Source of the DNA: a virus
Length of the DNA stretch: 24,542 nt
IMG/VR virus record: IMGVR_UViG_3300028796_000003
Location: 1 to 24,542 of that record
Strand: one strand, 5' to 3'
The translations under genes were made by a program, and so were the position numbers. Of this stretch, positions 11,385 through 17,339 are shown one piece after another. A model generated the notes under the pieces. That model had not been told where the DNA came from. It did not search any database and saw only the letters and a program-made list of their open reading frames with translations. Each line of letters opens with the position of its first letter. The first letter of the stretch is position 1.

Positions 11385-11417
11385 AAAAGAAGAAGGGCAC
11401 TTGCTCTTCTTCTTTTT
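11385..11417 (+). terminator. A/T-flanked terminator after the first early gene
   Basis: AAAAGAAGAAG (11385-11395) and CTTCTTCTTTT (11406-11416) pair perfectly over 11 bp around a 10-nt loop, and the 3' arm runs into a five-T tract. It begins 3 nt after the stop of the first early gene. The stem is AT-rich and so weaker than the UUCG one at 6621-6646. Its symmetry would allow some action in both directions, because the opposite strand also ends in a T tract. The next promoter follows immediately. Confidence 0.65.
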
Positions 11418-11431
11418 ATCTGTGCTATACT
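11400..11431 (+). promoter_or_regulatory. Early promoter 2 (no palindrome)
   Basis: TGTGC then TATACT (11426-11431) forms an extended -10. The 3' arm of the preceding terminator fills the usual spacer, and TTGCTC (11401-11406) is a poor, distant -35. The leader CACACCAACAGAAAGACAGAA leads to ATG 11458. This copy keeps the extended -10 and leader of the family but lacks the operator palindrome, so it may escape the control that acts on the others. Confidence 0.65.
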
Positions 11432-11457: not shown

Positions 11458-11658
11458 ATGAACAAGATCAGCAAAAACTCGCTCACGATGACTCTCGGCA
11501 CCGCCGCTGACATGGTCGCACGCGCCGACAAGTTCGAACCGCACCAACTCGCCCGCGCTCGCGTCGTCGTCGCCTATTGGGCAGCGCTGCGCGCCAAGCA
11601 ATCCCGCGCACGGGCTGCAAAAAAGAATTTTGCATCAGGTGCTTGCGTTACGCGATAA
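11458..11658 (+). CDS. Small basic early protein
   Basis: This 66-aa protein begins MNKISKNSLTMTLGTAADMV and is helical and basic (ARARVVVAYWAALRAKQSRA), ending KNFASGACVTR. No family is recognised. Its last eleven codons (from AAG AAT TTT GCA on) are spelled by what elsewhere is the non-coding start of a promoter cassette, AAAAAGAATTTTGCA. Its TAA lies in the right arm of the next palindrome. The ancestral stop, where neighbours have TAA before AAAAGAATTTGCA, seems to have become GCA, extending the protein. AGAAAG lies 6 nt before the ATG. Confidence 0.75.
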   Translation: MNKISKNSLTMTLGTAADMVARADKFEPHQLARARVVVAYWAALRAKQSRARAAKKNFASGACVTR

Positions 11659-11670
11659 CGCTGCTATAAT
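11643..11670 (+). promoter_or_regulatory. Early promoter 3 with palindrome
   Basis: TTGCGT (11643-11648), a 16-bp spacer and TATAAT (11665-11670, preceded by TGC) form the promoter. The spacer holds GCGTTA, CGCGA, TAACGC, a 6-bp-arm version of the family palindrome. The stop codon of the 66-aa gene is inside the right arm. The leader is CACACCAACCGAAAGACAG before ATG 11697. Confidence 0.78.
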
Positions 11671-11696: not shown

Positions 11697-11993
11697 ATGA
11701 ACAACGCAGTCGCAAACACCATCCTTCAGCAACTCGGCGGCAATCGCTTCATCGCCATGACCGGCGCGAAGAACTTCGTCGGCACCGAGAACGCTCTTCA
11801 CTTCCAACTGCCGAACCGCAAGATCAACTCTGTCGTCGTGCGCCTCGACGCCACCGACACTTACACGGTGATGTTCAACAAGCGCACGAACATGGGCGTG
11901 AACATCAAGCAAGTGTCAAGCGAGTCCGGCGTCTATGCCGACAAACTGCGCGCTGTCTTCGAACAACACACGGGATTGTTCACGAGCCTGTAA
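11697..11993 (+). CDS. Conserved-looking early phage protein, unknown function
   Basis: This 98-aa protein begins MNNAVANTILQQLGGNRFIA and holds MTGAKNFVGTENALHFQLPN, INSVVVRLDATDTYTVMFNK and NIKQVSSESGVYADKLRAVF. The 'GGN.F..MTGAKNF......L.F.LP' opening is shared by many short phage and plasmid proteins of unknown function that I recall but cannot name. It looks like a small mixed alpha/beta fold. It has its own cassette promoter (11643-11670) and is followed by another palindromic promoter. Confidence 0.82.
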   Translation: MNNAVANTILQQLGGNRFIAMTGAKNFVGTENALHFQLPNRKINSVVVRLDATDTYTVMFNKRTNMGVNIKQVSSESGVYADKLRAVFEQHTGLFTSL

Positions 11994-12001
11994 GATTAAC
12001 G

Positions 12002-12026
12002 GCACCGAGTATGCTATACTCGGTGC
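12002..12026 (+). promoter_or_regulatory. Early promoter 4, palindrome shifted onto the -10 box
   Basis: GCACCGAGTA (12002-12011), TGCTA, TACTCGGTGC (12017-12026) form a 10-bp-arm palindrome with a 5-bp centre. Here the -10 TATACT (12015-12020) lies inside the palindrome, whereas in the other cassettes it follows it. The outer bases GCACCG and CGGTGC are the same as in the family, but the inner GTTA/TAAC is replaced by AGTA/TACT. The leader ACACCAACAGAAAGCAGAGA leads to ATG 12047. Confidence 0.75.
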
Positions 12027-12046: not shown

Positions 12047-12295
12047 ATGACAGCACGCAAATCCTGGGACGAGATCATGGAACGCAAGCACATCACGCGC
12101 ATGAATCGCGACGACAAGACCGTCGACAAGATCGAGCGGCTCGAAGCGAAGGCACTGCCGCTGATCGGCGAGCTATGCAGAGAAGGCAAGACGGTCTACT
12201 ATGTAAACTGTCACCCGCTCTATAAGGGAAAGACCCGCGAAGGCACGCAGGCCGATCTGTTAGCATTCCTGATCCGCAATAAATACGTGATCTGA
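12047..12295 (+). CDS. Small early protein, unknown function
   Basis: This 82-aa protein begins MTARKSWDEIMERKHITRMN and continues DKTVDKIERLEAKALPLIGE, TVYYVNCHPLYKGKTREGTQ and ADLLAFLIRNKYVI. It is charged, with an N-terminal helical half and a short beta-hairpin-like YYVNCHPLY stretch. No known family. ATG 12047 is preceded by AGAAAGCAGAGA and by its own promoter. Its TGA overlaps the ATG of the HNH endonuclease gene (TGATG at 12293-12297), so the two are translated together. Confidence 0.8.
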   Translation: MTARKSWDEIMERKHITRMNRDDKTVDKIERLEAKALPLIGELCREGKTVYYVNCHPLYKGKTREGTQADLLAFLIRNKYVI

Positions 12296-12780: not shown

Positions 12781-12828
12781 TTGCGTTACGCCGAAACGCC
12801 ATGCTATAATTCGTCATCGCAACGAATT
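12781..12828 (+). promoter_or_regulatory. Early promoter 5, class II with downstream inverted repeat
   Basis: TTGCGT (12781-12786), an 18-bp spacer and TATAAT (12805-12810, preceded by TGC) make a standard promoter. The spacer carries a weak GCGTT...AACGC palindrome. AATTCGT (12808-12814) and ACGAATT (12822-12828), separated by CATCGCA, form a second inverted repeat over the start-site region. The leader ends CCTAGAAAGCAAATC before ATG 12846. Confidence 0.78.
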
Positions 12829-13247: not shown

Positions 13248-13277
13248 CACCGTTACTCGATAACGGTGTGCTATACT
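13248..13277 (+). promoter_or_regulatory. Early promoter 6 with palindrome
   Basis: CACCGTTA (13248-13255), CTCGA, TAACGGTG (13261-13268) form the palindrome. One extra T then separates it from GC and the -10 TATACT (13272-13277). No good -35 is visible. The A-rich AAATAAAAAAGAAAGG directly upstream, right after the previous stop, fits the A-tract of the family. The leader ends GAAACAGAAAGCAGACC before ATG 13313. Confidence 0.75.
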
Positions 13278-13588: not shown

Positions 13589-13617
13589 GCACCGTTACCC
13601 GATAACGGTGCTATAAT
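13589..13617 (+). promoter_or_regulatory. Early promoter 7, model palindrome cassette
   Basis: GCACCGTTA (13589-13597), CCCGA, TAACGGTGC (13603-13611) form a perfect 9-bp-arm palindrome that abuts TATAAT (13612-13617); its TGC end doubles as the extended -10. TTGCAC overlaps the left edge 19 bp from the -10, too far for a good -35. The cassette starts right after the previous stop (TAA then AAAGAATT) and ends ACACCAACAGAAAGGCACAA before ATG 13645. This is the clearest copy and serves as the reference. Confidence 0.85.
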
Positions 13618-14697: not shown

Positions 14698-14903
14698 CAT
14701 GGCACCGCGCCAAGTACGCGCACGGGCGGTACTTCTGGGGCAATTACACATGCCAGAAGGAACATTCGCGCCTGGGTGACGTGTGGACACTGAAGTACAA
14801 CGGTGTCGAAGTCTCGCAGTCGACGACGTTTCGAGCGGCAAAAGAAGACGCCTACGAACATTTTCAGAAAGCGCTTGCGACGTTACGCAATAACGGGTTA
14901 TAA
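14694..14903 (+). CDS. Small early protein, aromatic-rich
   Basis: From ATG 14694 this encodes 69 residues: MTWHRAKYAHGRYFWGNYTC, QKEHSRLGDVWTLKYNGVEV, SQSTTFRAAKEDAYEHFQKA, LATLRNNGL. The many Trp, Tyr and His residues, with W.LKYNGVEV...TFRAAKEDA, suggest a small beta sheet plus a C-terminal helix, a plan common in small phage proteins. No known family. Its last codons and stop are built from promoter 8: TTGCGACGTTACGCAATAAC reads as LATLRNNG, and the TAA is within the -10 TATAAT. Confidence 0.78.
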   Translation: MTWHRAKYAHGRYFWGNYTCQKEHSRLGDVWTLKYNGVEVSQSTTFRAAKEDAYEHFQKALATLRNNGL

Positions 14904-15073: not shown

Positions 15074-15102
15074 GCGCCGTTACCCGATAACGGTGCTATA
15101 AT
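15074..15102 (+). promoter_or_regulatory. Early promoter 9 with palindrome
   Basis: GCGCCGTTA (15074-15082), CCCGA, TAACGGTGC (15088-15096) equal the reference palindrome with one change in the left arm (A to G). TATAAT (15097-15102) follows directly. The leader is CACACCAACAGAAAGCAGCA before ATG 15129. The left part replaces GAATTTGCACC by AAATGCGCC. Confidence 0.82.
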
Positions 15103-15475: not shown

Positions 15476-15661
15476 ATGAGCGCACAAACTACCGCCGAAC
15501 GTCAAGCACTCTATCGAGCCCGACGCACTGTCGAAGGCAAGACGGAAGTGCGCGGCATCTACTTGCTGCCCGAGCAACACGCACTCCTGCGCGCATACGC
15601 TCGAAGCCTGTTCGCCGCATCTCTCAACCCACGCATGCAAACCACAGAAAGCACGACATGA
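15476..15661 (+). CDS. Small RHH-like protein (AERQ.LYRARR)
   Basis: From ATG 15476 this encodes 61 residues: MSAQTTAERQALYRARRTVE, GKTEVRGIYLLPEQHALLRA, YARSLFAASLNPRMQTTEST, T. The opening 'TTAERQ..YRARR...GK.EVRGIYL.PE.H..LR.YA' matches a group of short phage and plasmid proteins with a ribbon-helix-helix plan: a basic N-terminus, one strand (EVRGIYL) and two helices. Such proteins bind DNA as dimers, so this is a candidate regulator of the early palindromes. AAAGG lies 10 nt upstream of this ATG. An in-frame ATG at 15452 would add 8 residues and overlap the previous stop. Confidence 0.75.
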   Translation: MSAQTTAERQALYRARRTVEGKTEVRGIYLLPEQHALLRAYARSLFAASLNPRMQTTESTT

Positions 15662-15957
15662 AACCCGCATCAGCTATCCAACACCCGAGCGAAAGAAACC
15701 GCAGCATGCCCGATGTCAAGGGCATGATCTTCATGCCTGCACACATGGCCTTGACGTTCGTCGACGCACCGATGATCGGCGTCAAGCTCGGTGACAAAGG
15801 CTTCTGGCCTTTGCATCATCCGGACCATGAAGAACTTAACGGACGACCCGCAAGCGATGCGGTGCTTCGCTCTGCGTTGCAGGCGTCCATGTTTGGATGG
15901 GACGCACCGTGTGCACGTGAAGCGCTTGCATGGCTCAGAGAACGCGATGGCGCGTAA
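15658..15957 (+). CDS. Early protein, unknown function
   Basis: From ATG 15658 this encodes 99 residues beginning MKPASAIQHPSERNRSMPDV. MIFMPAHMALTFVDAPMIGV and KLGDKGFWPLHHPDHEELNG follow. The C-terminal helix is DAVLRSALQASMFGWDAPCA then REALAWLREROGA-like (RERDGA). The start overlaps the previous stop (ATGA) and has the family-like ACAGAAAGCACGAC leader without a promoter. A second possible start (MPDVKGM, 15706) cannot be excluded. No family is recognised. Its last 11 nt overlap the metallopeptidase-like gene. Confidence 0.75.
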   Translation: MKPASAIQHPSERNRSMPDVKGMIFMPAHMALTFVDAPMIGVKLGDKGFWPLHHPDHEELNGRPASDAVLRSALQASMFGWDAPCAREALAWLRERDGA

Positions 15958-16588: not shown

Positions 16589-16636
16589 TTGCGTTACGCC
16601 GAAACGTCGTGCTATAATTCGTCATCGCAACGAATT
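16589..16636 (+). promoter_or_regulatory. Early promoter 10, class II
   Basis: TTGCGT (16589-16594), an 18-bp spacer and TATAAT (16613-16618, preceded by TGC) form the promoter. Most of the spacer and downstream part is identical to promoter 5: GCGTTACGCCGAAACG at the start. AATTCGT (16616-16622) and ACGAATT (16630-16636) form the downstream inverted repeat around CATCGCA. The leader ends CTGAAAGACGCAAA before ATG 16651. Confidence 0.8.
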
Positions 16637-16650
16637 CTGAAAGACGCAAA

Positions 16651-16980
16651 ATGAACGCTCTCACCGCCGCCTGCCCTAAGTGCAATCCCCTGTATCCCGA
16701 GCTTGACGAAGACGGCATCCCTTACACGTGTTATGCATGCTGCGACACCGGCATTGTGTCGAAGGATTACGCTGACGCTTACCTGCGTGACCTCGACGAC
16801 GCTTGCGAATATCGCGTTATGCGTCCCGTCGTGAACGGCAAGCATCAGCGTCTCGACGGTGATGAATACGATAGCTGGTACGTCGCCGAGCCGCTGCTTC
16901 CCGCGTCGCTCTTCCCGAAGGCCCGCCGCGCCGCGCCGGTCTACGCTGCTGATCTCGAATTCGACGATCTGCCCTTCTAA
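16651..16980 (+). CDS. Zinc-finger-like early protein
   Basis: This 109-aa protein begins MNALTAACPKCNPLYPELDE. CPKC (residues 8-11) and CYACC (27-31), then DTGIVSKDYADAYLRDLDDA, form a two-pair cysteine site like one half of a DnaJ-type zinc finger (C..C...C..C.G). The rest is mixed, with YDSWYVAEPLLPASLFPKAR, and an acidic end DLEFDDLPF. An acidic '(D)DLPF' tail is common in phage single-strand-binding and replication proteins, where it contacts partners; that is only suggestive here. It has its own class II promoter, and the TAA leads straight into the next cassette. Confidence 0.78.
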   Translation: MNALTAACPKCNPLYPELDEDGIPYTCYACCDTGIVSKDYADAYLRDLDDACEYRVMRPVVNGKHQRLDGDEYDSWYVAEPLLPASLFPKARRAAPVYAADLEFDDLPF

Positions 16981-16989
16981 AAAGAATTT

Positions 16990-17028
16990 GCACCGTTACG
17001 CGATAACCGCGCATAACGGTGCTATAAT
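16990..17028 (+). promoter_or_regulatory. Early promoter 11, palindrome with 10-bp longer centre
   Basis: The arms GCACCGTTA (16990-16998) and TAACGGTGC (17014-17022) are perfect, but the centre is 15 bp (CGCGATAACCGCGCA) instead of 5. TATAAT (17023-17028) follows directly. The inner CCGTTACGCGATAACCG retains a standard-length palindrome with 4-bp arms, so the right half appears twice. The leader is CTCACCAACAGAAAGACGCA before ATG 17056. Confidence 0.8.
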
Positions 17029-17055: not shown

Positions 17056-17301
17056 ATGTTTGACCTCAACCGATTCGCCTACAACAAGAATTCCCGCCTG
17101 CTGACCGCGAGCCTTCGCGACCTGGGCATGCGCACGCTGCCGCAAGAAGTCGAGATTCGCTCGCACCTCACCGGCCACATCGTCAAGTTCGTGTACGACA
17201 ACGAAGCCGCCGAGCGTCATGAGTTCTGGGATGGCGAGATGGCTGAATACAAGCCTGTCGGCGAGTGCCGCGTCGCGAAGCTCGCAATCATCGCCAACTA
17301 A
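17056..17301 (+). CDS. Small early protein, unknown function
   Basis: This 81-aa protein begins MFDLNRFAYNKNSRLLTASL and continues RDLGMRTLPQEVEIRSHLTG, HIVKFVYDNEAAERHEFWDG and EMAEYKPVGECRVAKLAIIA. The series of short strands (EVEIRS, IVKFVYD, EFWDGEMAEYKP, CRVAKLAII) suggests a compact beta fold. No family is known. AGAAAGACGCAAA precedes the ATG. The TAA is followed by AAAGATTTTGCACC, the start of the next cassette. Confidence 0.78.
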   Translation: MFDLNRFAYNKNSRLLTASLRDLGMRTLPQEVEIRSHLTGHIVKFVYDNEAAERHEFWDGEMAEYKPVGECRVAKLAIIAN

Positions 17302-17310
17302 AAAGATTTT

Positions 17311-17339
17311 GCACCGTTACTCGATAACGGTGCTATAAT
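17311..17339 (+). promoter_or_regulatory. Early promoter 12 with palindrome
   Basis: GCACCGTTA (17311-17319), CTCGA, TAACGGTGC (17325-17333) abut TATAAT (17334-17339). This matches the reference cassette except for one centre base (C to T). The leader is shortened: CCTCACACAGAAAGCAGCAA before ATG 17364. It is the last such promoter before a run of six coupled genes ending at 18788. Confidence 0.84.

Follow-up and report, generated by a model that had tools for sequence, protein, structure and literature searches.

A putative operator at phage early promoters lies in two registers about one helical turn apart

Introduction

At one early promoter of an uncultured phage, here called promoter 11, two perfect palindrome arms are separated by a centre of 15 bp, whereas the sister palindromes at 13589 and 17311 carry the same arms around a centre of 5 bp. 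The original prediction took this for a palindrome centre expanded by one helical turn through duplication of the right half-site, so that a dimer would still read both outer arms in phase. Is the centre really the part that varies, where does the site lie at related promoters, and what might act there?

The DNA analyzed is a stretch of 24,542 nucleotides (the window; IMG/VR record IMGVR_UViG_3300028796_000003, positions 1 to 24,542), which matches part of a 59.2-kb relative, G014, almost perfectly (99.99% and 100% in two alignments). Short plus-strand genes lie at ~10.8-18.3 kb, many with their own extended -10 promoter, and minus-strand late genes flank this region on both sides. We infer from their size and layout that the short genes are early. 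The extended -10 motif TGNTATAMT has 10 matches in the window, all at early-gene starts, compared to 0.19 expected.

Results

Promoter 11 contains a complete operator and a third half-site

Read directly, promoter 11 runs AAAAGAATTT-GCACCGTTA-CGCGATAACCGCGCA-TAACGGTGC-TATAAT, with the left arm at 16990-16998, the 15-bp centre at 16999-17013 and the right arm at 17014-17022 (Table 1). A palindrome scan agreed with the predicted arms and long centre, returning 9-bp arms with a gap of 15 at promoter 11, 9-bp arms with a gap of 5 at 13589-13611 and 17311-17333, and 8-bp arms with a gap of 5 at 13248-13268. Gapped palindromes of such size number 11 in the window, about fourfold the mean of shuffled sequences (mean, 2.7; maximum, 8). 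Since TAACGGTGCTATAAT (13603, 15088, 17014, and 17325) and GCACCGTTA (13247, 13589, 16990, and 17311) each occur exactly four times in the window and every copy is at a promoter, the promoter 11 site is not a chance occurrence.

The GTTA...TAAC core that had been noticed inside the palindrome is present at 16995-17007, and it is a complete operator with an ordinary 5-bp centre whose TAAC lies 15 bp from the -10 hexamer. What had been described as an expanded centre is therefore an intact operator that merely sits farther from the -10, and it aligns with the distal operators of relatives G004 and G011 at the same intergenic site. The third half-site, TAACGG, starts 10 bp from the start of the core TAAC; at this intergenic site it is kept in relative G012 and absent in G004 and G011. 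The right arm together with TATAAT equals the right half and the -10 of a canonical promoter. These comparisons show that promoter 11 is a composite in which a complete distal operator is joined to the -10 of a canonical promoter and its right half-site. It is better described as an intact operator shifted 10 bp away from the -10, with a spare half-site in the usual place, than as an expanded centre.

Table 1. Features of promoter 11 and of the other early-region operators in the window
Feature	Position	Strand	Basis
A-rich tract AAAAGAATTT, left of palindrome	16980..16989	+	Tracks the operator, not the -10
Gapped palindrome GCACCGTTA - 15 bp - TAACGGTGC	16990..17022		Direct read and palindrome scan
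Complete core operator GTTACGCGATAAC, GTTA-CGCGA-TAAC, 5-bp centre, distal register	16995..17007		Distance counts; alignment with G004/G011
Third (extra) half-site TAACGG, canonical proximal position	17014..17019		Direct read; comparison with G012
Extended -10 TGCTATAAT, promoter 11	17020..17028	+	TGNTATAMT motif count
81-aa gene served by promoter 11, no recognised family	17056..17301	+	Family scan; orthologues in five relatives, 75-82% identical
Upstream 109-aa gene, Cys-rich, anchors the intergenic site in relatives	16651..16980	+	
Canonical operator, 5 bp from -10	11647..11659		
Degenerate operator GTTACGCCGAAAC, 7 bp from -10, with TTG -35 and TG	12785..12797		
Canonical operator, 7 bp from -10	13252..13264		
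Canonical operator, 5 bp from -10	13594..13606		
Canonical operator GTTACGCAATAAC, 4 bp from -10, no TG, TTGCGA -35, 18-bp spacer	14882..14894		
Canonical operator, 5 bp from -10	15079..15091		
Degenerate operator GTTACGCCGAAAC, 7 bp from -10	16593..16605		
Canonical operator, 5 bp from -10	17316..17328		

The operator-to--10 distance falls into two classes

Pattern and terminase searches of viral contigs in IMG/VR gave about ten contigs with the operator, whose records were scanned for exact cores that have a -10 and a GAAAG ribosome site downstream; distance was counted as the bases that separate TAAC from the -10 hexamer. Exact cores were counted because divergent distal sites and sites with a 6-bp centre escaped a weight matrix whose core was fixed at 13 bp. 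A core GTTAC-NNR-TAAC-like site is shown by these scans at most early promoters, proximal or distal to the -10: all 7 exact cores of G014 (59 kb) are at early promoters, as are nearly all of those in G012, G002, G004, and G011.

We found that the 82 exact-core sites lie 4 bp (14 sites), 5 bp (31), 6 bp (3), 7 bp (19), 14 bp (12), or 15 bp (3) from the -10, with none at 8-13 bp. Removal of near-duplicates left 43 proximal sites (4-7 bp, centre near -23 to -26), 8 distal sites (14-15 bp, centre near -33) that come from only four promoter loci and may in part have a common origin, and a lone mismatched site at 19 bp. The centre of the operator, on the other hand, is 5 bp, rarely 6, at every exact site, so the variable part is the distance to the -10; an expanded centre was found at no other site among the 52 non-redundant ones. 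At the other distal promoters, which stand in the same 14-15 bp register, the centre is an ordinary one of 5 or 6 bp and there is no third half-site. The expected clustering at +0 and +10 but not +5 thus holds for the operator-to--10 distance and fails for centre length.

These counts bear on the dimer that was proposed to read the outer arms across the 15-bp centre, kept in phase by an insert of one helical turn. The arms are perfect and the insert is exactly 10 bp in both lineages that carry it, as this proposal would have it, but the palindrome encloses a normal core, has no second case among the non-redundant sites, and owes its right arm to a half-site that other distal promoters do without. 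Since the proximal class includes distances of 4, 5, 6, and 7 bp, it does not depend on strict helical phase, and a dimer spanning two outer arms and a 15-bp centre is unlikely. We consider this reading very improbable and reject the outer-arm dyad because the inner core is complete.

The +10 element is conserved in a second phage

Relative G012 has the same +10 element, GCACCGTTACGCGATAACCTCGAATAACGGTGC, after the same 109-aa gene. In that gene 16 of 52 fourfold sites differ between the two phages (31%), while the +10 element has two changes, both within the 6 bp of filler that separate its second half-site from the third; this filler varies in sequence but not in length. The 27 positions of the arms and half-sites are unchanged (P about 5e-5 if sites change at the fourfold rate and 0.06 if they change at a rate of 10%), in what is a single comparison of one phage pair for an element known in only two lineages. 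The promoter unit may have been exchanged recently between the lineages of the window phage and G012.

The extra half resembles a right half repeated in tandem at a distance of 10 bp, and it persists in G012, so this part of the predicted half-site duplication stands, although the centre is not what varies. Such a duplication could be a neutral accident of slippage or template switching that left the promoter working and gave the third half-site no selected effect; the insert is indeed much like CGCGATAAC copied in tandem with one base added, and the orthologous 81-aa gene has a canonical promoter in relatives. Retention of the length and of all half-sites in G012 at such divergence nearby, with changes in the filler only, makes this improbable in our estimate, though the case against neutrality comes from one phage pair and TAACGGTGC is under some constraint anyway, since it supplies the TG of the extended -10.

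Promoter units have been shuffled between genes

The promoter of the 81-aa gene has a distance of 15 bp in the window, 5 bp in G012, G002, and G004, and 4 bp in G011 and G006; these five canonical promoters represent four distinct sequences, those of G011 and G006 being identical. For the 129-aa gene, the distance is 7 bp in the window, 15 bp in G012, and 14 bp in G002, G007, G004, G011, and G006, and for the 108-aa gene it is 5 bp in the window, G012, and G011 and 14 bp in G004. The gene behind the degenerate operator at 12785-12797 has distal operators, at 14-15 bp, in the relatives' copies. In G014, G012, G004, G011, and G006, the site immediately behind the 109-aa gene is distal, with arms that differ between relatives (GCACC/GGTGC versus CGCC/GGCG). 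Since distances switch between orthologous genes and the distal site persists with other arms, promoter units have been shuffled between genes, and both registers recur across these shuffled units.

The palindrome also has features of an RNA hairpin

The A-rich tract to the left of the palindrome could be UP-element-like or, alternatively, the U-tract of a minus-strand terminator. If the tract and the palindrome act together as RNA, they could form a minus-strand intrinsic terminator, which would stop late-strand antisense transcription entering the early region from the flanking late genes, or an insulating hairpin that ends the upstream gene; the +10 version would then be a hairpin with a longer stem. 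This is the main rival to a protein operator, the two are not mutually exclusive, and we regard it as possible if doubtful.

In a terminator scan, five window operators, including promoter 11, scored as minus-strand terminators with T-rich tails, and the region as a whole gave 19 matches compared to 11.6 expected. Tails with at least 5 T in 8 follow 27 of 56 proximal sites on the minus strand and 5 of 56 on the plus strand, and the position of the A-tract follows the palindrome rather than the -10. On the minus strand the C...A of the centre turns into U.G, so that the stem reaches 10 bp; at promoter 11 the minus-strand stem is 13 bp (-20.9 kcal/mol), and the G012 version retains an inner helix. 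Some operator-less promoters have unrelated hairpins at the same place. Arm positions also covary within genomes, with 130 Watson-Crick cells over all sites compared to 82 +/- 7 in shuffles, and the covariation is individually significant in G012, G004, and G011. On the other hand, shared module ancestry can mimic arm covariation, and A.C arm cells, which would be tolerated as G.U on the minus strand, are depleted (5 versus 15 expected). Within the stem, the core is rich in AU and its sequence is conserved. Type II sites (TTGCGTTACGC...) retain this core and fail as terminators, having neither complementary outer arms nor a U-tract, and Rfam gave no match. Among distal sites, 5 of 10 minus-strand tails have at least 5 T in 8. 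A plus-strand RNA hairpin as the sole explanation was rejected, since G.T cells (45 versus 49 in shuffles) are not enriched.

Other elements of the early region

Several further elements were observed. At 12002-12026, a perfect palindrome with 11-bp arms, GCACCGAGTA-TGC-TATACTCGGTGC, encloses the promoter -10 box of the 82-aa gene. In G012 the palindrome reads GCGCCGAGTTATGCTACACTCGGCGC, a paired A-T to G-C change; it is a regulatory or structural element distinct from the promoter 11-type operator. At 11385-11431, a textbook intrinsic terminator (11-bp stem, then TTTTTAT) abuts an extended -10 promoter in the position that the operator takes elsewhere, and it is retained in G011 and G002 with a different stem sequence. 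In L107, L112, and L115, which are operator-less relatives or parts of them, several promoters have a GGGGCTTCGGCCCC hairpin (TATAATGGGGCTTCGGCCCC) immediately behind them, and the mRNA would start with this hairpin. Within the 98-aa gene, 75 bp (11709-11783) are 81-84% DNA-identical to phages of Sinorhizobium, Rhizobium, and Agrobacterium, which have no other detectable DNA in common with the region. The window's 61-aa and 99-aa genes (15476-15957) are one fused 148-aa open frame in G033 and G018 (L110 and L136).

Search for a regulator

Among the 30-odd proteins scanned against Pfam and PHROGs, we recognised no DNA-binding regulator, and the same set gave no MotA or AsiA homologue, no other activator-like protein, no MerR protein, and no repressor or lysogeny module. 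The 61-aa (15476-15661) and 82-aa (12047-12295) proteins are present with the operator and absent without it. We do not claim either as the regulator: their AlphaFold2 models have pTM values of 0.47 and 0.32, and the 61-aa protein gave no fold match. The 59-kb relative encodes a DUF3567 protein (L104:1126-1419, minus strand; E 6.5e-13), a family that we take to belong to the Burkholderiales and that presumably hints at a possible Burkholderiales host and a possible host-derived gene.

Terminase identity above 60% was found in none of the isolated phages searched, and promoter BLAST against isolated phages and plasmids returned nothing convincing. Among the matches listed, the operator with an extended -10 in bacterial genomes was scattered over unrelated phyla, which we took as chance. 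Among the papers searched, none mentions the core sequence.

Discussion

Within single genomes the core is found at many promoters and rarely elsewhere, a pattern that suggests that one protein controls the early genes. A protein operator for one putative regulator, probably a repressor, is the best-supported mechanism, and we hold it with roughly even confidence. Under this model, the repeated palindrome would be bound by a regulator encoded by phage or host at single-gene early promoters, which would be read by the host sigma70 polymerase. Host sigma70 polymerase is the likely reader because 41 of the 43 proximal promoters have an extended -10 TG or a TTG -35 (spacer, 16-19 bp). A dimer on the core would overlap sigma region 4 or the -35 region and repress whichever register it occupies; one turn away, the third half-site might provide a weaker or cooperative extra contact. 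Promoter 11 itself may have arisen by fusion, or a canonical promoter may have gained 10 bp through an insertion or a tandem duplication. Several points speak against the operator model: the protein scan recognised no regulator, the +10 element comes from two lineages and the distal sites from four loci, the outer arms covary within single genomes, which a hairpin requires and independent half-sites do not, and 6 of 8 distal promoters lack both TG and TTG -35, compared to 2 of 43 proximal ones, which plain repression leaves unexplained.

That shortage of promoter elements would be accounted for if one putative regulator acts as a repressor in the proximal register and as an activator in the distal one, where it would replace the -35 in the manner of T4 MotA; promoter 11-like promoters would then be intermediates carrying both registers. 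The distal centre, at about -33, falls where MotA boxes sit (PMC2988021), and given this precedent at the place of the -35, an activator at the distal register is conceivable. The distance of 14-15 bp also stays constant while the operator sequence turns over. However, the 129-aa gene would be repressed in the window phage yet activated in relatives, promoter 11 and the G004/G011 type retain TG, the distal loci are only four, and the protein scan found no candidate activator. We give a switch of sign little credence, and the role of promoter 11 as an intermediate equally little.

How does the proposed operator compare with known systems? Phage repressors of the lambda CI/Cro type are dimers whose operators lie over early promoters and are clustered at one switch. 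The operator here resembles theirs in its ~13-bp palindromic core, in half-site centres ~9 bp apart and in overlapping the -35/-10 region of sigma70 promoters, but it occurs as one site at each of many single-gene promoters and in two discrete registers. MerR-type operators sit in promoter spacers of 19-20 bp, and several proximal sites are likewise placed between TTGnnn and TATAAT, in spacers of 18-19 bp. Unlike MerR operators, many proximal sites have no -35 (TTG is missing in about half of the proximal and in all distal sites), and the distal register cannot use spacer twisting.

In T4 middle promoters, a MotA box centred at -30 replaces the -35 at 12 +/- 1 bp from the -10, and about half of them have TGn (PMC2988021). 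Distal promoters are similar in having an element near -30 in the place of the -35, at a fixed distance from a good -10 and with TGn in some: all 8 distal sites lie at 14-15 bp, and none has a TTG -35. However, the MotA box is non-palindromic and MotA binds as a monomer (PMC2988021), whereas the distal sites are palindromes 14-15 bp from the -10. The stoperators of Cluster A mycobacteriophages are 13-bp asymmetric sites that lie mostly away from promoters (PMC6550527); they share with our operator one short motif repeated through a phage genome and thought to serve one repressor (PMC6550527), but our exact sites are palindromic and at promoters, which sets them apart from stoperators. The sites of phage 186 Apl and of recombination directionality factors have half-sites one helix turn (10-11 bp) apart that are bound cooperatively, a precedent for the third half-site of promoter 11, although Apl sites are long direct-repeat runs and here one extra half-site is added to an inverted repeat (PMC7498355).

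The operator does lie in two registers about one helical turn apart; binding, its sign, and a regulator we infer. One odd palindrome has become a comparative set of about 50 non-redundant natural promoters in which one operator takes either of two positions separated by about one DNA turn. Should a protein act through this operator, the set would test how far an operator can shift before control is lost or reversed in sign, and how early promoters may be rewired by the shuffling of modules between phage genes.
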